Below are positions 35,522-45,562 of a stretch of DNA of 64,000 nucleotides, in pieces. The stretch's first letter is position 1. Each line of letters opens with the position of its first letter. Where the stretch lies: contig PHET01000003.1 of the NCBI GenBank assembly GCA_002841275.1, positions 62,001 to 126,000 of the forward strand. The letters are read 5' to 3'. A program made the translations under genes and the position numbers. Under the pieces are notes generated by a model that was not told where the DNA came from, did not search any database, and worked only from the letters and a program-made list of their open reading frames with translations. This DNA is from Actinobacteria bacterium HGW-Actinobacteria-7. GTDB lineage: Bacteria > Actinomycetota > Coriobacteriia > Anaerosomatales > PHET01.

Positions 35522-36238
35522 CTACGCCAGCCAGATCAGGTACGCCGCTGCCACAATCATGCCTGCACCGCCCAGCTTAGTGAGCGCTCCTGTGACCCGG
35601 GACAGCCGGCGCATGAGCACCAGTGAGCCCGAGGCGACCCCCAGCAGCATCAGGGGCACGCCTTTGCCCAGGCCGTAGACGAACAGTAGTAGCGCGCCCA
35701 GCGCGACCGAGCCGCGCATCGCTGCGATTGTCGCAATCGCCGCGAGAATCGGCGTTGAGCACGGCGATGCCACAGCACCGAACAGCATTCCAAGAAGCAG
35801 CGCTCCTAGAAATCCCGTGCGCTTCGAGCGGACCGCGGGGAAGAAGCGGTTGAGCGCGTCGAAGTGCAGGTCGACCACGCCCAACAGGTGAAGTCCCAGG
35901 AGCGTACAGACCGCTGCTGCTACCCAGTAACCAGCCGACGTCATGAGCAGGGCATGCCCCAGCGCCCCCGCGACAGCGCCAATCGCGGCGAACACCAGAC
36001 TCATGCCCAGCACGAACGTCGCGGACAGCGCGAGGCCGCGGCCCCAAGCGGCGCGCGCGGACAGGTCGGGTGTCTCGGCGACCTGACCGGTGACGTAGCC
36101 GAAGATGGCGGGGAGCATCGGCAGTACACACGGGCCGAATCCCGCAACAAGCCCGCCGGCGAACGCGACCCCGAAGGCGGCGACACCGGTGATGGTGCCC
36201 TCACTCAGCTGGGCGGCGAACGACTCGATCCAGCTCAT
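35522..36238 (-). CDS. ccdA: CcdA/DsbD-like transmembrane thiol-disulfide transporter
   Basis: The 238-residue protein has six transmembrane helices with the two redox cysteines of the CcdA core: FGPCVLPMLP in helix 1 and ASPCSTPILA in helix 4. It carries reducing equivalents from cytoplasmic thioredoxin across the membrane to an extracytoplasmic thioredoxin partner. That partner is likely the adjacent Cys-x-x-Cys protein, whose stop overlaps this start by four bases. It is the last gene of the operon headed by the arsenite-type ArsR. No cytochrome c biogenesis genes adjoin, so the role in that process is doubtful. Confidence 0.92.
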   Translation of the reverse strand: MSWIESFAAQLSEGTITGVAAFGVAFAGGLVAGFGPCVLPMLPAIFGYVTGQVAETPDLSARAAWGRGLALSATFVLGMSLVFAAIGAVAGALGHALLMTSAGYWVAAAVCTLLGLHLLGVVDLHFDALNRFFPAVRSKRTGFLGALLLGMLFGAVASPCSTPILAAIATIAAMRGSVALGALLLFVYGLGKGVPLMLLGVASGSLVLMRRLSRVTGALTKLGGAGMIVAAAYLIWLA

Positions 36239-36717
36239 CGGGCGGTGAGGCTGTCGAGGTAGGTGCGCAGCCCGGGTTCGTCGAGCGGCCCCACGTACGA
36301 GTCGACTATCTTGCCCTTCCCGTCGATGAAGAACGAGGTGGGGATGTACTGGAACTCGAACCGGTCCGCCAGGCTGCGCGCGCCAGGGTCATCGGTGATG
36401 GCGTTCACGAACGTGAGACGGTCCGCATATTCCGGTAGTACGCCGTCGACCACCCTTGAGATGTCGATGCATGACTGGCAAGTGGTTGAGTGGAACAGCA
36501 CGTAGACCGGCTTACCCGCCCGGAGCGCCGCATCGTACTCGGCGCTCGCATCCCCTCGGGCGGCCGTGGGGGTGAGGCTCGGCTCGGCGGGCGTACTCAC
36601 GGAGTTGGCCGCTGGAGCGACCGCTGTCGGCTTGATTGCCGCCCCGCCGAGCTTCATGCCCAGCACCACCGCGAACACCACGGCGACGCCCAGCAGAATC
36701 TTCGCTTTGCCGCTCAT
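36235..36717 (-). CDS. Membrane-anchored thioredoxin-like protein
   Basis: The 160-residue protein has an N-terminal helix (about 6-26), a Pro/Ala/Thr-rich linker, and a thioredoxin domain with active site HSTTCQSC followed by a cis-Pro in YIPTSFF. The fold faces outside. It overlaps both neighbours by four bases (ArsP-like permease upstream, CcdA downstream), so it is probably kept reduced by CcdA and acts on the permease substrate or on nearby thiols. Family: thioredoxin-like/TlpA-related; the exact target is unknown. Confidence 0.9.
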   Translation of the reverse strand: MSGKAKILLGVAVVFAVVLGMKLGGAAIKPTAVAPAANSVSTPAEPSLTPTAARGDASAEYDAALRAGKPVYVLFHSTTCQSCIDISRVVDGVLPEYADRLTFVNAITDDPGARSLADRFEFQYIPTSFFIDGKGKIVDSYVGPLDEPGLRTYLDSLTAR

Positions 36718-37679
36718 CGCAGCACCCAGTTGAACAGGTAGCCGATGGCGGTGATGGTGACGAAGTTGATACTGATGAAGATCGCGATCAGCTTGGGCTT
36801 GATCACTTTGCGCAGGATGATGAACTCAGGTACCGAGAGCGCCACGACCGCCATCATGAAGGCGAGCACGGTGCCCATCGCCACACCCTTCTCGGTGAGC
36901 ACGCTCACGAGCGGGATGATGCCGGCGGCGTTGCTATAGAGCGGGATGCCCATGAGCACGGCCACGGGCACGGCCAGCGGGTTGCCCGGCCCCGCCCACT
37001 TGGCGAGCGCGTCGGTGGGGATGTAGCCGTGCATCACGGCACCCAGTGCGATGCCGCCCACTACGTACGGCCAGACTTTGCCCACGATGTCGGCCACGTA
37101 GCCGCGCGCGTACGCGAATCGCTGCGCCCATGTGAGCTCGACCGCATCGGACTCGCCCACTTTGATCTGGCGCACGTAGTCTTCGACTTGGTCCTCGAGA
37201 TCGAGCTTGCCGATGACGATGCCACCAATGATGGCGACGGTCAGCCCGCTCACCAGATACAGCCCGGCGACCTTCCAGCCGAACAGCCCCAGAAGCAGTA
37301 CGAGGGCGACCTCGTTGACCATGGGACTCGCGATGAGAAACGAGAACGTCACGCCCAGCGGAACGCCGCTCTCGACGAAACCGATGAACAACGGCACGGC
37401 CGAGCAGGAGCAGAATGGCGTGACGACGCCCAGCAACGCCGCAAGCACGTTGCCGCCGTAGAGTCGCGAATGCGAGAGGAAGCCGCGGGTCTTCTCGGGA
37501 GGGAAGAACGAGCGGATCACCGCGACCGCGAAGACGATGACCACAAGCATCGCGAGGATCTTGGGCACGTCGTAGAGGAAGAAGTCGACCGATGCGCCCA
37601 GTTTGGATGCGGGGTCGAGGCCGAGCAGGTCATAGGTCAGTCGGTCTGCGACCCACTGGAACGGATAGAAGATGTCCAC
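36714..37679 (-). CDS. DUF318/ArsP-like (SO_0444-type) permease
   Basis: The 321-residue protein has about eight transmembrane helices in two halves. The first half carries the hallmark VTPFCSCSAVPLFIGF, with Cys pair, as in ArsP and related permeases. ArsP exports trivalent organoarsenicals, and other members have been linked to copper or zinc. The second half contains GIPLYSNAAGIIPL, the matching internal repeat. It sits between a small redox-disulfide protein and a thioredoxin in an ArsR-headed operon, consistent with handling a thiol-reactive metalloid. The substrate is inferred only from context. Confidence 0.88.
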   Translation of the reverse strand: MDIFYPFQWVADRLTYDLLGLDPASKLGASVDFFLYDVPKILAMLVVIVFAVAVIRSFFPPEKTRGFLSHSRLYGGNVLAALLGVVTPFCSCSAVPLFIGFVESGVPLGVTFSFLIASPMVNEVALVLLLGLFGWKVAGLYLVSGLTVAIIGGIVIGKLDLEDQVEDYVRQIKVGESDAVELTWAQRFAYARGYVADIVGKVWPYVVGGIALGAVMHGYIPTDALAKWAGPGNPLAVPVAVLMGIPLYSNAAGIIPLVSVLTEKGVAMGTVLAFMMAVVALSVPEFIILRKVIKPKLIAIFISINFVTITAIGYLFNWVLR

Positions 37680-37685
37680 GATGGT

Positions 37686-37925
37686 CTACTGGTCCCGGGT
37701 GAGTATGGTGACGACTTCACCGTAGGTGGGGACGCGTCCAGCGAGGCGGAGTTGCTCATCGACCACGAGGGCCGGAGTGGACATGACGCCGTAGCCCATG
37801 ATCTCGCCCATGTCGGTGACTTTCACGACCTGCGCGTCGAGCACGAGGTCTGCCACGACCTGCTTGGCGACCTGCTCGAGCTTCTGGCAGTTCGCGCAAC
37901 CGGAACCCAGTACCTTGATGATCAT
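37686..37925 (-). CDS. Redox-active disulfide protein 2-like small thioredoxin
   Basis: The 79-residue protein begins MIIKVLGSGCANCQK, with Cys-Ala-Asn-Cys active site in the first loop, and has the thioredoxin-like STPALVVDE cis-Pro segment. This is the cytosolic redox-active disulfide/thioredoxin family often found with ArsP-type permeases and ArsR. It is six bases from the permease start and 21 bases after the arsR stop. It may shuttle the metalloid or its electrons to the permease, which is inference. Confidence 0.9.
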   Translation of the reverse strand: MIIKVLGSGCANCQKLEQVAKQVVADLVLDAQVVKVTDMGEIMGYGVMSTPALVVDEQLRLAGRVPTYGEVVTILTRDQ

Positions 37926-37946: not shown

Positions 37947-38279
37947 TCAGAGCCGATCGAGTTCGTCCGATACACGACGCAGCTCGTCGCGGCGTAGCGT
38001 GTAATACATCCAGAGCCCGTCCTTGCGTGCGTCGATCAGTCCTGCGTCGCGCAGCACATTCATGTGGTGTGAGATGGTCGAGGGCGCGAGGTCGAGCCGC
38101 TCGGCGAGTTTGCACGCACACACCTCTGCGGGGCCGCAACACGTCTTGCCGGACTGTGGCGTCGAGTCGCCTAGGATGCGCAGGATCTCCCGGCGGTGGC
38201 CCGATGCGAGCGCCTTGAACGCAGCGTCGAGCCCCCGGTCTGCGGCAACCGATGCGACTGGCCCGTTAGTGTTTGGCAT
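37947..38279 (-). CDS. arsR: ArsR-family metalloid-responsive repressor
   Basis: ATG 38279 (GGGAG six bases upstream) gives 110 residues. The winged helix-turn-helix is clear (CKLAERLDLAPSTISHHMNVLRDAGLI). The helix just before it carries EVCACKL, which aligns with the arsenite-sensing ELCVCDL motif of ArsR, and an extra Cys-Cys pair lies upstream (GKTCCGPA), giving four Cys for As(III)/Sb(III)-type binding. It is the first gene of the redox/permease operon and is itself preceded by a palindromic operator that recurs before an MFS exporter gene. Repression relieved by metalloid is inferred from the family. Confidence 0.92.
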   Translation of the reverse strand: MPNTNGPVASVAADRGLDAAFKALASGHRREILRILGDSTPQSGKTCCGPAEVCACKLAERLDLAPSTISHHMNVLRDAGLIDARKDGLWMYYTLRRDELRRVSDELDRL

Positions 38280-38296
38280 GTGACACTCCCGCATAG

Positions 38297-38321
38297 TAGT
38301 TCGATGATTATCGAAGTATAG
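38297..38321 (-). promoter_or_regulatory. ArsR operator overlapping the arsR -10 box
   Basis: The palindrome TTCGAT-gatt-ATCGAA lies 18-42 bases before the arsR start. On the transcribed strand a -10 hexamer TATACT (38315-38320 in + coordinates) overlaps its edge, the usual geometry for autorepression. The 25-bp block matches the copy at 43947-43971 at 22 positions by my alignment. No good -35 hexamer was found at the right spacing. Confidence 0.7.
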
Positions 38322-38405
38322 CAGGATGGGGAAGTACTGCTAGGTGTGAATTTCACTGCCGAGGAGACATGTGGGCCGCCAAGGCACTGCGAGAGAGGCA
38401 CTCCG

Positions 38406-39797
38406 ATGCCGGTAGCACAGGTACCTGCCAACTCAGTTCTTCCATCGGGCGCGCGGATCATCATCATTGTGTCGAGCGGACCGTCGGCGCTTGCCCCCGG
38501 CGCCTACGTGGTGATGCCCGAGCTGCTGGGCAAGTCGCAAGGCAAGGCCCTCGCGCAGTTGCAGGAAGAGGGTCTCTCGGCCCAGGTGTTCAACGACTAC
38601 AGCGACGCCTACAAGCGCGGCGACGTGATCGGCCAACTTCCCGCGGGTGGTGTAGGTGTTCCGGCCGGTGCCGAGGTGGTGCTGCTGATCTCGAGCGGGA
38701 AGGCGTCCACCCCTTCTCACGAGCAGATGCTCCCCGACGTGATCGGTCAGCATGAGGCCCAGGCGGTCTCGACGCTGCAGGGCGCGGGATTCTCTCCGCA
38801 GATCGTTCGTCGCCCGAGTGCGACCGTTCCCGCCGGTGTGGTGGAGGAGCAGTTGCCCAGCAGAGGCTCTCTGGCGTCCACCTCGGCCAAGAAGGGTACC
38901 CCGTGGTGGGTGTGGGCGCTCCTGGCCGCTGTTCTGGTCGTGGCGGGTCTGGTGGCGGCTTTCGCGCTGGGCGGTTCAAAGACCGTTATGGTTCCGGACC
39001 TGGTGGGGTTGACGCAGGCCGAGGCGGTCAAGGTCCTCGAAGCAGCAGGCCTTGGCGTCACGGTCGTTGCGGCGCCCGAGGGAGACCCTGGCGTGGTGAC
39101 CTCACAGGATCCTGCAGCGGGTAGCGAGGTCGGCAAGAGTTCGGTGGTGCAGATCGCTGTCTTCCAGGGAACCGAGTTGACCGCGGTGCCTGACGTGCGC
39201 GGCAAGAACCAGTCTGAAGCGACACGGGCCTTGCAGGACGCGGGGTTCGAAGTGCGCGTCACGCGCAAGGACAGCGCATTTGTCGACAAGGGCCTCGTGA
39301 TCGAGCAAGACCCTGCAGGCGGCGATGGTGCACCGCAGGGGTCGACCGTGAGCATCGTCATCTCCAGCGGGCCGGCGCAGAACAACGTGAGCGTCCCCGA
39401 CGTCGAAGGTCTCACGCGCGCAGACGCCCAGTCGATGCTTCTGAACCTCGGTCTGAAGGTCGTGGTCGCCGAGAACCCAAGCACCGAAGTGGCTACCGAC
39501 GTCGTGATCGCGCAACTGCCGGCGGCGGGGGACTCCGTTGCGCCGGGTACGAGCATCGGCATCGTCGTCTCGACCGGACCTCCGACCACGGTCGACCAGG
39601 TGCCGACCCCGGACGTAGTGGGGATCACGCTGGCCGATGCTCAGCAGGTCATCAGCGACGCGGGGCTGGAGGCGATTCCGGTCGTCTCGGTGGGAAGCGG
39701 CAAGCCGGCCAACCAAGTGGTCGCCCAGACGCCGGCCGCCGGAGTCCAGACACAGGTGGGCAGCAAGGTCGTGCTGTTCTACTCGTCGGGCCCCTAG
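38406..39797 (+). CDS. Membrane protein with multiple PASTA domains and no kinase
   Basis: ATG 38406 (GAGAGAGG eight bases upstream) gives 463 residues. The N-terminus begins in the middle of a PASTA-like unit (AQVPANSVLPSG...VSSG), then come two more (about 30-110 and 112-165), one transmembrane helix (about 172-198), and four PASTA domains (VPDLVGLT, VPDVRGKN, VPDVEGLT, TPDVVGIT) to the end. PASTA domains bind peptidoglycan fragments outside the cell, usually in PknB/StkP kinases. Here there is no kinase, and the first units would be cytoplasmic if the helix is the only one. It is divergent from arsR. Confidence 0.8.
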   Translation: MPVAQVPANSVLPSGARIIIIVSSGPSALAPGAYVVMPELLGKSQGKALAQLQEEGLSAQVFNDYSDAYKRGDVIGQLPAGGVGVPAGAEVVLLISSGKASTPSHEQMLPDVIGQHEAQAVSTLQGAGFSPQIVRRPSATVPAGVVEEQLPSRGSLASTSAKKGTPWWVWALLAAVLVVAGLVAAFALGGSKTVMVPDLVGLTQAEAVKVLEAAGLGVTVVAAPEGDPGVVTSQDPAAGSEVGKSSVVQIAVFQGTELTAVPDVRGKNQSEATRALQDAGFEVRVTRKDSAFVDKGLVIEQDPAGGDGAPQGSTVSIVISSGPAQNNVSVPDVEGLTRADAQSMLLNLGLKVVVAENPSTEVATDVVIAQLPAAGDSVAPGTSIGIVVSTGPPTTVDQVPTPDVVGITLADAQQVISDAGLEAIPVVSVGSGKPANQVVAQTPAAGVQTQVGSKVVLFYSSGP

Positions 39798-39879
39798 TCC
39801 AGCCAGGCTGACGTGAAGCCTGCGAATGGGCGTTTGACCCGACCGGAACGACTCGCTACCATACAACGGCACCACCCAT

Positions 39880-39955
39880 GGCCAGGTAGCTCAGTTGGTA
39901 GAGCAGGGGACTGAAAATTCCCGTGTCGGCGGTTCAAGTCCGTCTCTGGCCACCA
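39880..39955 (+). tRNA. tRNA-Phe (GAA)
   Basis: The acceptor stem GGCCAGG pairs with TCTGGCC, the anticodon arm is GGGGA-CTGAAAA-TTCCC (anticodon GAA), and the T arm is GGCGG/TTCAAGT/CCGTC. CCA is encoded at 39953-39955. Confidence 0.95.
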
Positions 39956-39966
39956 TAGAACTGATT

Positions 39967-39995
39967 GAAGCCTCGGTCGATTTGACCGGGGCTTC
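39967..39995 (+). terminator. Terminator after tRNA-Phe
   Basis: GAAGCCTCGGTC pairs with GACCGGGGCTTC (one T-G wobble) around GATTT, followed by TTCTCTTTCC, 12 bases after the tRNA. It separates the tRNA from the downstream regulator operon. Confidence 0.85.
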
Positions 39996-40033
39996 TTCTC
40001 TTTCCTGCTGCCGAAGATGTCTTGCGCAGGGTG

Positions 40034-40071
40034 TTGACACATCTGAACATCACGTGTCAGAATTACCTGAC
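40034..40071 (+). promoter_or_regulatory. Promoter with overlapping operator for the 40.1-kb operon
   Basis: A perfect -35 TTGACA (40034-40039) is followed after 18 bases by CAGAAT (40058-40063) as -10. A palindrome GTCAG-aattac-CTGAC (40056-40071) covers the -10 box, and AAAGGAGA follows just before the ATG at 40087. The layout suggests autorepression by the ArsR-like protein encoded next. Confidence 0.65.
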
Positions 40072-40086
40072 GGGTAAAGGAGAGAT

Positions 40087-40422
40087 ATGACGGACGATCG
40101 AACAGGCGACCAGTTGCTCCAGATGCTGAGCGCACTTGCGAACCCTCATCGGCTGCGGATTCTTGCGGCCCTGAGAGCTCGCGAGAGCTATGTCAGCGAG
40201 TTGGCTCGGGAGCTTGGGATCGGACGTCCGCTTCTCCACATGCACCTGCAAGTACTGGAGAAAGCGGGACTCGTGGTTGGACGCCACGAGATCTCGGAAG
40301 ACGGAAAGGCACTTCGCTTCTTCAGCGTGGCGGACTTCGACGAGCACCTGACGCCAGAGCGCATCACGGACGCGACGAAGACTCTCAGCGCAGAGAGCGA
40401 AACACAAGGAAGGAGTAAGTAA
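40087..40422 (+). CDS. ArsR-like winged-helix repressor without metal cysteines
   Basis: The 111-residue protein has an ArsR-type winged helix: LANPHRLRILAAL, YVSELARELGIGRPLLHMHLQVLEKAGLV and a wing GRHEISEDGKALRFF. It lacks Cys entirely, so a soft-metal site of the arsenite kind is absent; the sensed signal is unknown. It starts a tightly packed operon of at least five genes whose other members are small or medium membrane proteins. Its stop overlaps the next ATG (TAATG). A palindrome over the promoter is its likely target. Confidence 0.88.
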   Translation: MTDDRTGDQLLQMLSALANPHRLRILAALRARESYVSELARELGIGRPLLHMHLQVLEKAGLVVGRHEISEDGKALRFFSVADFDEHLTPERITDATKTLSAESETQGRSK

Positions 40423-40691
40423 TGGAATGGCTTGATGGATCTCTGGGGTTCGTTGTTGTGATTCTCGTGTTCTTCGCTGTCGCCTCGCTCGGTCTGCCCT
40501 CGTATCGGCGTCAGCAGATCAAGATGGCGGAGATAAAGGCGAGCAGCGGTGAGCAGTTCAAAGAGCTCAACGCCGAGTACCTCCAGCTCGCGCAGGAGAC
40601 TCGCGAGGCGCAAGCGAACATGCAGACCGATCTAGCGGCAATCCGCGCGTCGGTCGAGTCTATGGAGAAGATGATGAGCGATGTCGGATAA
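40422..40691 (+). CDS. Single-span membrane protein with coiled coil (89 aa)
   Basis: One N-terminal helix (about residues 8-27) is followed by a basic turn (YRRQQIK) and a coiled coil of about 50 residues (SGEQFKELNAEYLQLAQETREAQANMQ...). The first base of its ATG overlaps the regulator stop, and its stop lies inside the start of the DUF4386 gene. Similar regulator-plus-small-membrane pairs exist in actinobacteria, sometimes involving membrane-stress proteins, but I cannot name this family. It should face the cytoplasm. Confidence 0.75.
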   Translation: MEWLDGSLGFVVVILVFFAVASLGLPSYRRQQIKMAEIKASSGEQFKELNAEYLQLAQETREAQANMQTDLAAIRASVESMEKMMSDVG

Positions 40692-41406
40692 GAGAACCGC
40701 GCGTGAAATCAGCGACCGCAAGGCCGCAACGGTCATTGGCGTGCTCTACATCATCGGCACCCTTGCGGGCATTGCGGCCGCGGTCGTAATGCCTTCGATG
40801 TCTGGCCCGGACGTTCTCGCGAACATTGCCGCCCATCGCACAGCTGCGGTCGCCGGCACACTGCTCATCCTTACGATGGGATTTGCACTCTCGGCACTTT
40901 CCGCGGTCTTCTATCCGGTCGGCCGCCGCTACAGTGAAGTGCTTTCGATGGGCTATGTGATCTTCCGCGGCGCGCTTGAGGGAATGCTGTACGTCGTCGG
41001 CGCATTGATTCTGCTGCTGCTTGTCGCGTTGAGTGCAACACCCTCCGCCGCATCTCCGGTGGCGGCCGCGCTGCAATCTGCGTACGGGGTGATATGGGAT
41101 CAGCTGCTCGCACTACCGTTCCTCATCGGCGCGAGCATGTTCTACTGGGTGCTTTTCCGCGCGCGGCTTGTGCCTGGATGGATTACCGTTTGGGGTTTGG
41201 TTGGAGCCGTGCTCTACCTCGCGGCGCCTCTCGCGCGCATGGCCGGTCTCAACCTCGACATTCTCATGGCCCCGCTTGCGCTGCAGGAAATGGTTCTTGC
41301 GGTATGGCTCATCGTCAAGGGCTTCAGCCCGGATGCGCTCACTTCCGTGGATCGCCAGCTGCAGGCAGCCCCGCGGCAGCTCGACGCCAGCTGGGTGGTC
41401 GTGTGA
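40681..41406 (+). CDS. DUF4386 family membrane protein
   Basis: The 241-residue protein has six transmembrane helices and matches DUF4386: the N-terminal KAATVIGVLYIIGTLAGI, the central PVGRRYSEVLSMGYVIFRGALEG and the APLALQEMVLAVWLIVKGF segment near the end. Function is unknown in this family, which often lies next to PadR or ArsR-like regulators. It overlaps the upstream coiled-coil gene by 11 bases and the downstream 57-residue gene by one base. Confidence 0.88.
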   Translation: MSDKRTAREISDRKAATVIGVLYIIGTLAGIAAAVVMPSMSGPDVLANIAAHRTAAVAGTLLILTMGFALSALSAVFYPVGRRYSEVLSMGYVIFRGALEGMLYVVGALILLLLVALSATPSAASPVAAALQSAYGVIWDQLLALPFLIGASMFYWVLFRARLVPGWITVWGLVGAVLYLAAPLARMAGLNLDILMAPLALQEMVLAVWLIVKGFSPDALTSVDRQLQAAPRQLDASWVVV

Positions 41407-41579
41407 TGGACAGCCCATTCTTCGTCCCGATCGCGGCGATGCTCACGGGGCTCGGCACGTGGGTCGCCTACCTGATCGCTCGTGCTGCTAGCGCCACCGT
41501 GAAGGGCTGGCCGTCGCAGGTTCCTGCGGGACTGGCCCTCGCAGCTGGCGGCCTGATCGCCTTCTCGGCCTACGCTTGA
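41406..41579 (+). CDS. Small two-span membrane protein (57 aa)
   Basis: ATG 41406 overlaps the DUF4386 stop by one base (TGATG), indicating coupled translation. The 57-residue product has two hydrophobic helices (about 3-24 and 38-56) joined by a short polar loop SATVKGWPSQ. There is no recognisable family. It belongs to the operon of the ArsR-like regulator. Confidence 0.7.
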   Translation: MDSPFFVPIAAMLTGLGTWVAYLIARAASATVKGWPSQVPAGLALAAGGLIAFSAYA

Positions 41580-41600
41580 TTCAAGGCTGAAGGGCCGGCC

Positions 41601-41741
41601 GTGGGCCAGGTCGTTCGGCTCGGATTGTTGCTTGTGCTAGCGGCGTTCGCCTACTGGAAGATCGGAAACCTGCCCGCGCTCGTGCTGTTGATCGCGGCAC
41701 TCGTTCCAGGCGTCCTGACCGTTATTGCGTACGTGGGGTAG
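41601..41741 (+). CDS. Small two-span membrane protein (46 aa)
   Basis: GTG 41601, with GAAGGG eight bases upstream, begins a 46-residue frame: MGQVVRLG, a first helix, AYWKIGNLP turn, a second helix (ALVLLIAALVPGVL) and stop. It follows the 57-residue gene by 21 bases and is the last gene before the terminator, so it is probably a real member of this membrane operon. No homology is claimed. Confidence 0.55.
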   Translation: MGQVVRLGLLLVLAAFAYWKIGNLPALVLLIAALVPGVLTVIAYVG

Positions 41742-41863
41742 TGGGCCTACGGCTCGCGGGAAGAGGGAAGTGACTGGCATGTCTTCGAAGATCACGGATC
41801 GCCTGGTAGGGTGCGGCCGTCATTGGCAGCAACGCCACCGTCGGTCTCGATAGATGCATACAA

Positions 41864-41890
41864 GGACCCCGTCAACGTGTGACGGGGTCC
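41864..41890 (+). terminator. Terminator of the membrane-protein operon
   Basis: GGACCCCGTCA pairs with TGACGGGGTCC in a perfect 11-bp stem around ACGTG, 123 bases after the last small gene. No strong T-tract follows. Between 41742 and 41863 nothing else is seen. Confidence 0.7.
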
Positions 41891-41977
41891 TGAGTCCAAA
41901 CGATCCGCTGTTCAGCCTCTCCGGCAACGGGCACAATGGGGTAGCGGCCTTGCTCGTTCACCCCATGGAGTCTCGCG

Positions 41978-43852
41978 ATGACCACTGCCCTGGATATGCG
42001 TACGATCTTTCTGTCTGGTGCTGTGCTGATAGCGCTGACGGCGGCTGTGATTGTCCCCCTGTGGACGCGGAATCGTGTTCGCTCTCCGGAAATCGGATTC
42101 TGGCTCGTCGCGTACGTCATGCGCCTTGTGGGAATTCTGCTGATCGGCGCCCGGGGCGCGATTCCTGATCTTCTGTCCATCATGCTGGCGAACGCTCTTG
42201 TGCTGGGAAGCGGTCTGATTCTGTATCTCGGGCTTGAACGCTACCTCGGCAAGCGTGGGTCGCAAGCGCACAACTACGTGGTGTTCGCGGCCTTTCTGGG
42301 TGTCCATGCGTACTTCACGTACGTGCATCCAGACCTGCTGGTTCGCAACATCAACTCGGCAGTAGTGATCACGTTCATCGTGTTGCAGGCAGCGTGGCTC
42401 ACGCTCTTTCGGGTGGAGCCTGCGCAGCGGCCCGCGACAAGGGCCGTGGGTGTCACCTTTCTGGCCTACGCCGCGCTGTACACGGTGCGGGTCTTTGGGG
42501 ACCTGAGTGGGCCTACCTCCAGCCAGCTACTTCAGTCGGGCCCCTTCGACGCGACCATCACTCTCATTGATATGACGCTCTGGGTGGCACTGACCTTCGC
42601 GCTGTTCCTGATGGTGAACCGTCGTCTCTTCGGTGAACTCGAGCAGGACATCCGAGAGCGGATGGCTGCTGAGAATGCGCTGAAGTTGAGCGAAGCGAAG
42701 TTCTCCAACGCCTTTCACACGTCACCCGATGCGGTCAACATCAACCGGCTCTCCGACGGGCTATACCTCGACGTCAATGAGGGCTTCACGATGCTGACCG
42801 GATTCACCGCGGAAGACGTCGCCGCGAGGACATCGGCGGATATTCACATCTGGAACGATTCGGCGGATCGCGACCGCCTGGTGGCCGGTCTGCGCGCCAA
42901 CGGAGTGGTCAACAACTTGGAAGCGGTGTTTCGACGCAAGGACGGGAGTCTGACCACTGCACTGATGTCGGCCCGGGTGATCGATGTTGATGGGGAGCGA
43001 TGCATTCTCTCGGTCACCCGGGACATCTCGGATCGCAAGCGCGCCGAAGATGAGATTCGGCATCTGAATGCCGAGTTGGAACAGCGCGTTCAAGAACGCA
43101 CCGAGGAGCTTACCGCGACCAACGAGGAGCTTCTGGACGCGAACAACCGACTGGAAGAGGCGACGCGCGCCAAGAGCGTCTTTCTTGCGTCGATGAGCCA
43201 CGAGCTGCGCACCCCGCTCAACTCCATCATCGGCTTTTCGGACATCCTCGCCAGGGGACTCGCGGGCGAGCTCGCACCCGAGCAGCAGAAGCAGACGAAG
43301 ATGATCAACACATCGGGCAAGCACCTGCTCTTGCTCGTGAACGAGGTCCTCGATCTCTCAGCAATCGAGGCCGGGCAGATGAGGATCGAATATGCGCCGG
43401 TGGATACCGTCGGTGTCGTACGCACGGTCGCAGAGTCTCTCATGCCGCTCGCGGACAAGAAGAAGCTGGAACTGTCTTGGCAGGTGCATCCGGAGGCGTC
43501 TTCGCTCGTGTCCGATCACACGCGGCTTGAGCAGATACTCTTCAATCTGCTGGGCAACGCCATCAAGTTCACGGAAGTCGGCTCGATTCGGCTCGAGGTC
43601 CGACGTGCTGCGGACGACGTGGTGTTTGCGCTCTCGGACACGGGACGCGGCATCTCGGCGGAGCATCTGGTGCGGATATTCGACGAGTTCTACCAAGTCG
43701 AGCGTCAGGATGTTGCGAAGTCCGACGGTACCGGGCTTGGGCTGACCGTCTCAAAGCGGCTCGTCGAGATGTTGGGCGGTACGATCGAGGCCCAGAGCGA
43801 GTTGGGCGTCGGTTCAACGTTCACGGTGCGTCTTCCTGTCGCAGGCCTCTGA
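41978..43852 (+). CDS. Orphan membrane histidine kinase with MASE-like sensor and PAS
   Basis: The 624-residue protein has about seven N-terminal transmembrane helices (to about residue 215), a linker helix, one PAS domain (about 230-355), a coiled coil, HisKA with SHELRTPLN, and HATPase with NLLGNAIKF, DTGRGI and GTGLGLTV. GGAG stands seven bases before the ATG. No response regulator adjoins. The catalytic half is a close paralogue of the kinase at 9472-11340 (same EERVQERT-type coiled coil, IIGFS after the H-box), so they probably feed a common regulator elsewhere. Confidence 0.88.
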   Translation: MTTALDMRTIFLSGAVLIALTAAVIVPLWTRNRVRSPEIGFWLVAYVMRLVGILLIGARGAIPDLLSIMLANALVLGSGLILYLGLERYLGKRGSQAHNYVVFAAFLGVHAYFTYVHPDLLVRNINSAVVITFIVLQAAWLTLFRVEPAQRPATRAVGVTFLAYAALYTVRVFGDLSGPTSSQLLQSGPFDATITLIDMTLWVALTFALFLMVNRRLFGELEQDIRERMAAENALKLSEAKFSNAFHTSPDAVNINRLSDGLYLDVNEGFTMLTGFTAEDVAARTSADIHIWNDSADRDRLVAGLRANGVVNNLEAVFRRKDGSLTTALMSARVIDVDGERCILSVTRDISDRKRAEDEIRHLNAELEQRVQERTEELTATNEELLDANNRLEEATRAKSVFLASMSHELRTPLNSIIGFSDILARGLAGELAPEQQKQTKMINTSGKHLLLLVNEVLDLSAIEAGQMRIEYAPVDTVGVVRTVAESLMPLADKKKLELSWQVHPEASSLVSDHTRLEQILFNLLGNAIKFTEVGSIRLEVRRAADDVVFALSDTGRGISAEHLVRIFDEFYQVERQDVAKSDGTGLGLTVSKRLVEMLGGTIEAQSELGVGSTFTVRLPVAGL

Positions 43853-43905
43853 AGTCCGGCGAGCGATGGCCGGCAAGCTGATGCCGCCGAACCAGCGGAT
43901 CGAAC

Positions 43906-43935
43906 TTGACTGTGGATACCCGTAGGGGTAATCAT
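43906..43935 (+). promoter_or_regulatory. Probable promoter of the MFS gene
   Basis: TTGACT (43906-43911) is followed after 17 bases by TAATCAT (from 43929), a fair -10 match. The ArsR-type palindrome begins 12 bases further on, at the expected start of transcription, fitting repression of this promoter. Confidence 0.5.
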
Positions 43936-43946
43936 GGGCTTCCAAC

Positions 43947-43971
43947 TAGTTCGACGATTTTCGAAGTAAAG
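43947..43971 (+). promoter_or_regulatory. Second copy of the ArsR-type operator
   Basis: The block TAGTTCGACGATTTTCGAAG and its flank match the operator before arsR, with core TTCGA-cgattt-TCGAA. It ends ten bases before the MFS start codon and overlaps AAAGGAAG, so binding would block transcription. The match is by eye; no scan of the genome was possible. Confidence 0.7.
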
Positions 43972-43980
43972 GAAGCCCGC

Positions 43981-45183
43981 ATGCCTGCTCATTCGCGTCG
44001 TCTTGTGCTCCTGCTCGGTTTCGCCGGCTTCATCGTGATGGCGGACAACTGGGTCGTGTCACCGATTCTTCCGGCAATCTCGAAGAGTGTGGGCGTGACT
44101 CCCGAAGCGGCTGGGCTGCTGATTGCGGCGTACATGCTTCCCTTTGGCGTGTTCCAGCTCGTGTTCGGCCCGCTGGCCGACAGGTTTGGGAAGAGCCGGG
44201 TCATCCTGTCCACATTCACGGCTTTTGCGGTCGCCACCGCGCTGTGCGCGCTGGGAAACAGTCTGACCGGCATCGCCGCGTTTCGGGCGCTCACCGGGCT
44301 GTTCGCCGCGGCCACTATGCCAATCTCCCTGGCCCTGATCGCCGACACGGTGCCCATGGAACAGCGCCAGCAGGCCGTGGGCTCGTTCATGGGGATCGCG
44401 TTTCTCGGTCAAGCACTGTCCATGGGCATTGGAGGCGCCATCGCCTACTACTTCGACTGGCGGGGAGTGTTCATCGTCTACGCGCTGGCCGCTGTGGTGA
44501 TTGCGGTCGCGCTGTGGCGCGGGTTGCGCGGCATGGACATCGAACCGCCGCAGCGAGATCGGCACGAGTCGGTATTCAAGCCGTATCTTGCGCTCTTGGG
44601 ACACGGGCCAAGCCTGCGTACGTATCTGATCATCCTGGTCGAAGGGGCGTTCCTTCTTGGGAGCTTCAGCTATCTGGGCGCTCTGCTGGCGCACCGCTTC
44701 AGCCTGTCCTTTCTCGCGATAGGGGGCGTTCTGACCGCCTTTGGAGTTGCGGCGATCATTGCGGGCAGGACCAGTTCGAAACTCGCCGGGGCATGGGGCC
44801 GTACCCGGACGATCGCCGCCGGTATCGCTGTGGCCGCATTCGCCGATGGGCTGGTGTTCGCGGGCGGGCACAGCCTGATTCTCACCGGCATCGGTGTGTT
44901 CGCGCTCGGCTTCGGCTTCATGACCGCGCACTCGACACTGATTACGGTGGCAACCGAGTTCGCAGCTCGCTCAAGAGGCACTGCCATGTCGCTGGTGACA
45001 TTCGCGTTCATGGTGGGGGGCGCCATCGGCACGCAGGCGGGTGGGCGCATCGCACAAGCGACAGCGCTGACCTCGTTGTACGGCATATACGCGACGGGGC
45101 TGCTCGCCCTCGCCCTGGTCGCTCTGTTCGCAGTCGGTTCGGTGGGTGCACCTAAGATAGCGGCGCTGGATGGTGCCCGCTAG
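43981..45183 (+). CDS. MFS efflux transporter
   Basis: ATG 43981 (AAAGGAAG upstream) gives 400 residues with 12 transmembrane helices. The N-terminal loop motif A (GPLADRFGKSRVI) and an antiporter-like segment with Gly/Pro in helix 5 mark a drug:H+ antiporter-like MFS member of the DHA1/Bcr type. The ArsR-type operator before it and the thioredoxin-like gene after it suggest export of a thiol-reactive or metalloid compound, as for the arsenical MFS pumps ArsJ and ArsK, but the sequence alone does not show substrate. Confidence 0.88.
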   Translation: MPAHSRRLVLLLGFAGFIVMADNWVVSPILPAISKSVGVTPEAAGLLIAAYMLPFGVFQLVFGPLADRFGKSRVILSTFTAFAVATALCALGNSLTGIAAFRALTGLFAAATMPISLALIADTVPMEQRQQAVGSFMGIAFLGQALSMGIGGAIAYYFDWRGVFIVYALAAVVIAVALWRGLRGMDIEPPQRDRHESVFKPYLALLGHGPSLRTYLIILVEGAFLLGSFSYLGALLAHRFSLSFLAIGGVLTAFGVAAIIAGRTSSKLAGAWGRTRTIAAGIAVAAFADGLVFAGGHSLILTGIGVFALGFGFMTAHSTLITVATEFAARSRGTAMSLVTFAFMVGGAIGTQAGGRIAQATALTSLYGIYATGLLALALVALFAVGSVGAPKIAALDGAR

Positions 45184-45202: not shown

Positions 45203-45562
45203 ATGCCCGAGGTGGTCGTGAAGATCGTGTCCGAGAGTTGCGGTTGAGGCGGCGGCACCGCCGACTGCGATGAGCTCGAGTTGGCGCTCGGAGTGATCAC
45301 CGAGGGCGCCGCATGTGAACTCCCGCTGGCATGGCGCCTCCAGGTCTTGGAGGCACAGCTGAAAGACAGGGTCGGCTACGAGATCCTCTTCGAGGAGGCC
45401 GACCTCTGGGGCCTGGTCGGCGCCGAGCGTGAGGCGGCGATCGACGCCCTCGCTGCAGGACACGAACTTCCCTTCGTGCTGGTCGCCGATCATGTGGTCG
45501 CCACAGGGCAGCTGGACGCCGAGAAGATCGAAGTGGCACTCGGGCGGTTGGCGCCGAGCTAG
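45203..45562 (+). CDS. Candidate thioredoxin-like selenoprotein read through an in-frame TGA
   Basis: AGGGAG lies nine bases before ATG 45203. The frame reads MPEVVVKIVSESCG, then TGA (45245-45247, codon 15), then GGGTADCDELEL and continues without stop to TAG 45562, 119 residues if TGA is selenocysteine. The C-terminus is thioredoxin-like: LPFVLVADHVVATGQLDAEKIEVALGRL, an end found in thioredoxin-like metal or redox proteins. The TGA follows strand 1, in the loop where this fold has its redox Cys, and next to Cys13. Alternative: pseudogene or sequencing error. A SECIS hairpin could not be proved by eye. It follows the MFS stop by 19 bases. Confidence 0.65.

Follow-up and report, generated by a model that had tools for sequence, protein, structure and literature searches.

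Why should two transcription units on opposite strands carry nearly the same 25-bp palindrome in front of their first genes? The question is raised by a 64,000-nt stretch of contig PHET01000003.1 of Actinobacteria bacterium HGW-Actinobacteria-7 (hereafter the window; the host genome measures 2.53 Mb, and "relatives" stands for the other genomes of the host's order, probably Anaerosomatales/OPB41 of the Coriobacteriia). Here, one palindrome (O1) precedes the gene of a metalloregulator, ArsR, and the other (O2) precedes the gene of a transporter of the major facilitator superfamily (MFS), which is followed by a selenoprotein gene. The sites, their conservation, their gene context and the promoter architecture were computed. 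Comparative genomics lends good support to a single ArsR regulon made of two transcription units, and from it we infer that ArsR binds both sites. O1 and O2 are, very probably, operator sites for the product of arsR (37947-38279), the two units being co-repressed and then released together by a trivalent arsenical.

Two nearly identical palindromes before arsR and the MFS gene

38297..38321, minus strand: operator O1, before arsR; sequence TAGTTCGATGATTATCGAAGTATAG, core TTCGATGATTATCGAA at 38300-38315
43947..43971, plus strand: operator O2, before the MFS gene; sequence TAGTTCGACGATTTTCGAAGTAAAG, core TTCGACGATTTTCGAA at 43950-43965
37947..38279, minus strand: arsR, ArsR/SmtB metalloregulator of 110 aa (HTH_5 and NF033788 above cut-off)
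43906..43935, plus strand: predicted MFS sigma-70 promoter, TTGACT-18-AATCAT or TTGACT-17-TAATCA
43981..45183, plus strand: MFS transporter of 400 aa, from a subfamily recurrent in ars clusters (PF07690)
45203..45562, plus strand: selenoprotein of 119 aa, selenocysteine (Sec) at UGA 45245-45247 (SCGUGGGTADC), 19 bp after the MFS stop

On direct comparison, O1 and O2 matched at 22 of 25 positions and differed at three, exactly as a sequence-only reading of this DNA had reported for 38297-38321 and 43947-43971. The exact pattern TTCGAN6TCGAA occurs at two places in the whole window, O1 and O2 only; shuffled versions of the window contained 0.05 such sites on average, and none of 100 shuffles had two. 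Across the whole genome, O1 and O2 are the only places with three or fewer mismatches to the 25-bp consensus. When the core TTCGAYNATNRTCGAA was scanned, they were again the only places at zero and one mismatch, the other 37 all being at two. The sequence-only reading had called for such a genome-wide scan and had named many random copies as the result that would undo its proposal; since O1 and O2 are the sole places at 0-1 core mismatch, this objection is answered. A symmetrised position matrix was built from 59 sites of relatives, a few of them unrelated, with the window's own sites excluded (consensus tASTTCGAYRNNYRTCGAASTa). It gave 37.5 bits to O1 and 34.0 bits to O2, with no other place in the window exceeding 9.8.

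The likeness of O1 and O2 might instead reflect chance or a recent functionless duplication, all the more as their flanks are also alike (22/25), beyond what the conserved core requires. Against this stand the genome-wide rarity of the site and its independent conservation at each gene, which make such an origin almost inconceivable. Regarding its position, O2 had been expected to lie where transcription starts. Indeed, with the predicted TTGACT-18-AATCAT promoter at 43906-43935, O2 falls just downstream of the predicted MFS start.

Conservation of the palindrome among relatives

ArsR orthologs are present in most genomes of the order. Counted from -1500 to +150 relative to arsR, the exact TTCGAN6TCGAA was found at 39 of 46 ArsR-ortholog loci, or 41 when one mismatch was allowed, as against one occurrence in 920 shuffled arsR regions. 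At least one further locus, that of genome G003, has the exact site too and went uncounted solely through an arsR start called too far upstream. Over 69 genomes, TTCGAYNNNNRTCGAA mostly occurred in 0-3 copies per genome, the reversed control being almost always absent. Tandem operator cores, 16-17 bp apart, were observed in L122, L123, L126, L128, L130 and L131; in the operons behind them, the first gene encodes a permease distantly similar to ArsP (23-24% identity) and arsR follows it. Besides, genome G127 contained 14 motif copies, some of which resemble a 30-bp repeat array rather than operators: at L129 (3516-3591) and on other contigs of this genome, TTCGAYN4RTCGAA runs at 30-bp spacing.

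Orthologs of the MFS transporter were found in six other genomes of the order (64-78% identity), and in all six they lie 5' of the arsR operon. The gene is directly 5' of arsR in four of these relatives (L113, L114, L115 and L056) and 3-4 kb upstream in the two others (G003 and G005; L116 and L117), where the gap holds the gene of an arsenite pump, ACR3 (460 and 457 bits), together with cation-efflux-like and phosphoesterase-like genes, both named by eye. The exact TTCGAN6TCGAA core is carried by 7/7 MFS promoters, i.e., that of the window and those of the six orthologs, and the TTGAC-type -35 is kept in the ortholog promoters. As the O2-type site is intact in every case, it is probably under selection there. 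When GTDB was scanned for this MFS, 43 loci were obtained, those of the order itself included; at 22 of them, ArsP or an ArsE-type thioredoxin lies 6 kb or less from the MFS gene, and these include loci of Clostridium, Caloramator, Desulfosporosinus, Desulfobacula and Aquicultor. The ArsJ (MFS) model was absent from the best NCBIfam matches listed for the transporter.

These orthologous leaders also bear on another reading of O2, namely that the palindrome works chiefly in the RNA, as a hairpin hiding the MFS ribosome-binding site, which would amount to translational control. The leader of the window does fold better than its shuffles (z -2.8), with a stem covering GGAAG, and 8-bp arms (GGGCTTCC/GGAAGCCC) lengthen O2 into an extended hairpin that covers the ribosome-binding site (43936-43978). 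However, these arms occur in this genome only: none of the six orthologous leaders has them or folds better than its shuffles, and yet TTCGAN6TCGAA is kept in all six. Moreover, the core precedes arsR and further operons at variable positions, sometimes as tandem copies, which is what one expects from a DNA site. For want of conserved arms, the hairpin was rejected as the explanation of O2, and we hold translational control to be most unlikely.

ArsR and its operon

37686..37925, minus strand: MTH895/ArsE-family thioredoxin-like protein (TIGR00412, 101.2 bits, cut-off 62)
36714..37679, minus strand: ArsP-type permease (PF03773, E 7e-73)
36235..36717, minus strand: thioredoxin-domain protein (PF00085/PF13098 above cut-off)
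35522..36238, minus strand: CcdA/DsbD-TM protein (PF02683, E 2e-28)

On the minus strand, arsR, arsE, arsP, trx and ccdA follow O1 in this order and are tightly packed. The thioredoxin-domain protein is probably exported, judging from its N-terminal hydrophobic stretch. The winged helix-turn-helix of ArsR scored 42.4 bits against PF01022 (cut-off 22) and 78.4 bits against NF033788 (cut-off 55). Across 18 aligned orthologs, four cysteines are invariant, corresponding to a CC pair and an alpha-3 CxC (TCC...E[VLM]CxC), and so is the predicted recognition helix STxSHHM. Our best guess for the effector is a soft trivalent arsenical or antimonite. Considering the ArsP/ArsE content of the operon, the inducer need not be arsenite, and trivalent organoarsenicals are pointed to at least as much.

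Several observations weigh against the assignment of both sites to this ArsR. O1 had been described as overlapping a -10 TATACT; the -10-like hexamer is present (38315-38320, minus strand) and does overlap O1, but the promoter scan gave no sigma-70 promoter meeting its thresholds on the arsR strand, and no strong -35. The ArsR orthologs are devoid of the third cysteine of the E. coli-type CxCxxC site, the invariant CC pair lying just upstream. Some arsR loci have no intact site inside the counted range. Finally, the genome holds other possible binders, i.e., a second ArsR-family gene at 40087-40422 and three further, weaker ArsR-family matches. With multiple ArsR-family genes at hand, one of these proteins could occupy one or both sites, in which case there would be no shared regulon. 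However, throughout the order the site goes with orthologs of the 37947-38279 ArsR, mostly standing directly ahead of them or of their operon, and the 40087 protein departs from the STxSHHM recognition helix and has a palindrome of its own nearby. Binding by another family member is hence improbable, and the 37947-38279 ArsR is retained as the candidate repressor of both units.

The palindrome close to the second ArsR-family gene reads TGACAC-N13-GTGTCA (40035-40059), lies just upstream of the gene and differs from O1 and O2. Small membrane proteins are encoded after this gene.

Probable traces of an operon pulled apart

In clusters of relatives, MFS, arsR, the ArsE-like thioredoxin, ArsP, thioredoxin, CcdA and the selenoprotein are joined behind a common palindrome, and the cluster at L056 is collinear (operator-MFS-arsR-arsE-arsP-...-trx-ccdA-selenoprotein). 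Selenoprotein genes are likewise found inside the arsR/arsE/arsP/ccdA clusters of many relatives. Because the same genes stand together there, the view that the window would represent a rearranged form of an ancestral cluster, with both operators retained, is well supported by gene order. The sequence-only reading had proposed a split regulon joining the two units, and this proposal gains support from the single clusters of relatives as well as from the exact MFS sites in all seven genomes. In L114 and L115, an operator precedes MFS and another precedes arsR (site-MFS-site-arsR); therefore, such an operon could be cut with both parts staying under ArsR. In genome G121, which holds the closest MFS ortholog (79%), the contig begins within a tRNA-Phe directly before MFS (L113, 1-48); in the window, tRNA-Phe occupies 39880-39955, in the interval that separates the units. 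This suggests a tRNA-linked variable region, and the tRNA-Phe of both genomes is in keeping with a rearrangement at the same place.

A second palindrome in the MFS promoter

43916..43931, plus strand: CsoR/CstR-type box ATACCCGTAGGGGTAA, between MFS -35 and -10

This palindrome had been overlooked in the sequence-only reading. The pattern ATACCCN4GGGTAT, at 0-1 mismatch, lies between the TTGAC-type -35 and the -10 of all seven MFS promoters, 31-34 bp upstream of the ArsR core. A gene of the CsoR family (PF02583) is present in the seven MFS-bearing genomes, and similar boxes, some with a related 15-bp spacing, stand within or beside the CsoR-family loci of each. The window's genome contains 13 boxes at 0-1 mismatch, compared with two for the control, some of the 13 lying inside reading frames and possibly due to chance. 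Rhodanese and CcdA genes are found behind boxes of this set, to which the CsoR-family locus also belongs, and a weak ACR3-like match begins some 200 bp after one box. Two cysteines spaced by 29 residues, with no histidine at +25, are found in each of the three CsoR proteins examined, a pattern that we take to be nearer CstR than the copper sensor CsoR; the local protein scores below all NCBIfam cut-offs. A CsoR-family protein may thus bind the MFS box, and the second control site on the MFS half is probably sulfur-sensing. A MerR-type reading of the palindrome was discarded, the -35/-10 spacing being 16-18 bp, versus 19-20 bp for MerR promoters.

The CsoR-family gene of the host (G000:C27:19356-19880; L148, L149 and L203) appears to encode a tandem two-domain protein (open frame of 208 aa), unlike the single-domain proteins of relatives, and boxes flank it on both sides.

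Taken alone, the constant position of the box in 7/7 promoters and its genomic set in the host, with rhodanese, CcdA and the CsoR-family locus, would fit a promoter in which this box is the working control of MFS and O2 only a relic of the former operon. The ArsR site is nevertheless intact in the same seven promoters, at the same 31-34 bp spacing, even where MFS lies several kb from arsR (L116 and L117). It is therefore very unlikely that O2 is a relic, and control by ArsR, with the box as an additional input, is preferred.

The selenoprotein

The in-frame UGA is kept in nearly all homologs, with homology continuing beyond it, and the host genome encodes SelB (317 bits, cut-off 242). Since SelB is above its cut-off and the UGA is retained in the order's homologs, Sec insertion at 45245-45247 is very likely. 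Regarding the selenocysteine insertion sequence (SECIS), one hairpin was predicted downstream of the UGA, at a z of only -1.5. The protein belongs to a 28-member family (family A3, L018-L047) with CGU after the first strand. Many members have a second Sec (e.g., STUDMP; TU[DE]MP), where the window protein has a cysteine, and some end in Cys-rich tails (CC or CGCGC). The family is undescribed: no Pfam or NCBIfam model fitted it and the PDB sequence search gave no credible relative. A search of the open literature found no publication on it or on the TTCGAN6TCGAA operator.

The AlphaFold2 model (predicted local distance difference test score of 78, under 50 in the CGU loop) has the order beta-alpha-beta-alpha-beta-beta-alpha, i.e., a predicted thioredoxin-like fold. 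The nearest solved structure in VIA-align was SA0789, which corresponds to DUF1462 (Z 8.0, 91 residues, 3.4 A). ArsD chains ranked 2-4 (Z 6.6-7.1; 3mwh with Z 7.1 and a root-mean-square deviation of 3.6 A over 81 residues), so that DUF1462 and ArsD are the nearest structures to the predicted fold. Thioredoxins ranked below them, and Z at such a level can reflect a common fold only. Foldseek returned weak matches only (best E 0.011), and a single member of the 28 matched the ArsD sequence family PF06953, at an insignificant E of 0.67. The term Sec-thioredoxin, under which the protein had first been introduced, agrees with the predicted fold but not with the sequence family, which is not that of thioredoxins. 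In the same way, "ArsD-like" is used here as a hypothesis on the working mode suggested by the model, and not as family membership.

Proposed regulation and significance

In the absence of inducer, both units would be repressed by ArsR dimers, one covering the arsR promoter at O1 and holding down arsR-arsE-arsP-trx-ccdA, the other bound at O2, shortly past the MFS start, and holding down MFS and the selenoprotein gene. Once its conserved cysteines bind arsenite, antimonite or an organoarsenical, ArsR would leave the DNA, and both units would switch on. Ancestrally, a single operon would have had an operator ahead of MFS and, in many cases, a further one ahead of arsR. It would then have been broken and inverted, with the selenoprotein gene moved behind MFS and co-regulation kept because both operators were already in place. 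The MFS unit may receive a second input from a CsoR/CstR-type repressor at the box between -35 and -10, and the selenoprotein may serve as a thiol/selenol carrier of the arsenical or as its reductant. More speculatively, MFS and the Sec protein could form an undescribed branch of arsenical export, in which the selenoprotein, working like ArsD, would pass a trivalent or thiolated arsenical on to the MFS pump, with ArsR and the CstR-like sulfur sensor both acting as repressors. We consider this extension rather doubtful; if true, expression of the export branch would need both arsenic and reactive sulfur signals.

This locus would illustrate clearly how an operon can break up and yet keep its co-regulation, internal operators being already there. 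The MFS subfamily, uncharacterised so far, and the selenoprotein family, for which no model exists, become testable members of an arsenic regulon. Besides, arsenic sensing and sulfur sensing would be linked through the conserved pairing of an ArsR site with a CsoR/CstR-type site in a single promoter, a link relevant to sulfidic, arsenic-bearing subsurface habitats.

Comparison with known systems

Organoarsenical efflux through ArsEFG and ArsP is a known system. As in that system, an ArsE-family thioredoxin adjoins an ArsP-type permease here; unlike it, the operon adds a thioredoxin and CcdA and, in relatives, also the selenoprotein and MFS. With ArsD, the selenoprotein would share a thioredoxin-like fold, as predicted by its model, and a Cys/Sec after the first strand, but Sec takes the place of Cys, the sequence match is insignificant (see above) and Z is at a level for which a common fold may account by itself.

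The SAO and Tso operons are metal(loid)-related and hold selenoproteins, the ArsP-family efflux protein SaoE and DsbD-like proteins (PMC13188914); the present genes likewise combine a selenoprotein, an ArsP-family permease and a DsbD-like protein in a metal(loid)-related setting. Membership in SAO was rejected, as the permease reached 123.6 bits with the SaoE model (cut-off 325) and the thioredoxin 15.2 bits with SaoT (cut-off 65). Sulfur sensors of the CsoR family (CstR; TTHA1953) bind TAC..GTA palindromes overlapping promoters (PMC10318464), and the box before MFS resembles their sites in its TAC..GTA-type palindrome at a promoter and in the rhodanese gene behind one of the boxes.

A survey of ars operons listed 35 MFS proteins and called for proof of their function (PMC4435449); like those, the present MFS belongs to ars clusters in several phyla. 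The surveyed genes accompany ArsB or ACR3, whereas here mostly ArsP and an ArsE-type thioredoxin are found. Finally, TtSmtB of Thermus thermophilus HB27 was reported to bind promoters of arsenic genes outside one operon, its binding being weakened by arsenic (PMC5658604). This regulon is a precedent for unlinked units under one ArsR/SmtB protein. The Thermus genes, including arsC and a P-type ATPase, are dispersed, whereas the units considered here, ArsP/ArsE/CcdA on one side and MFS-selenoprotein on the other, are unsplit in relatives.

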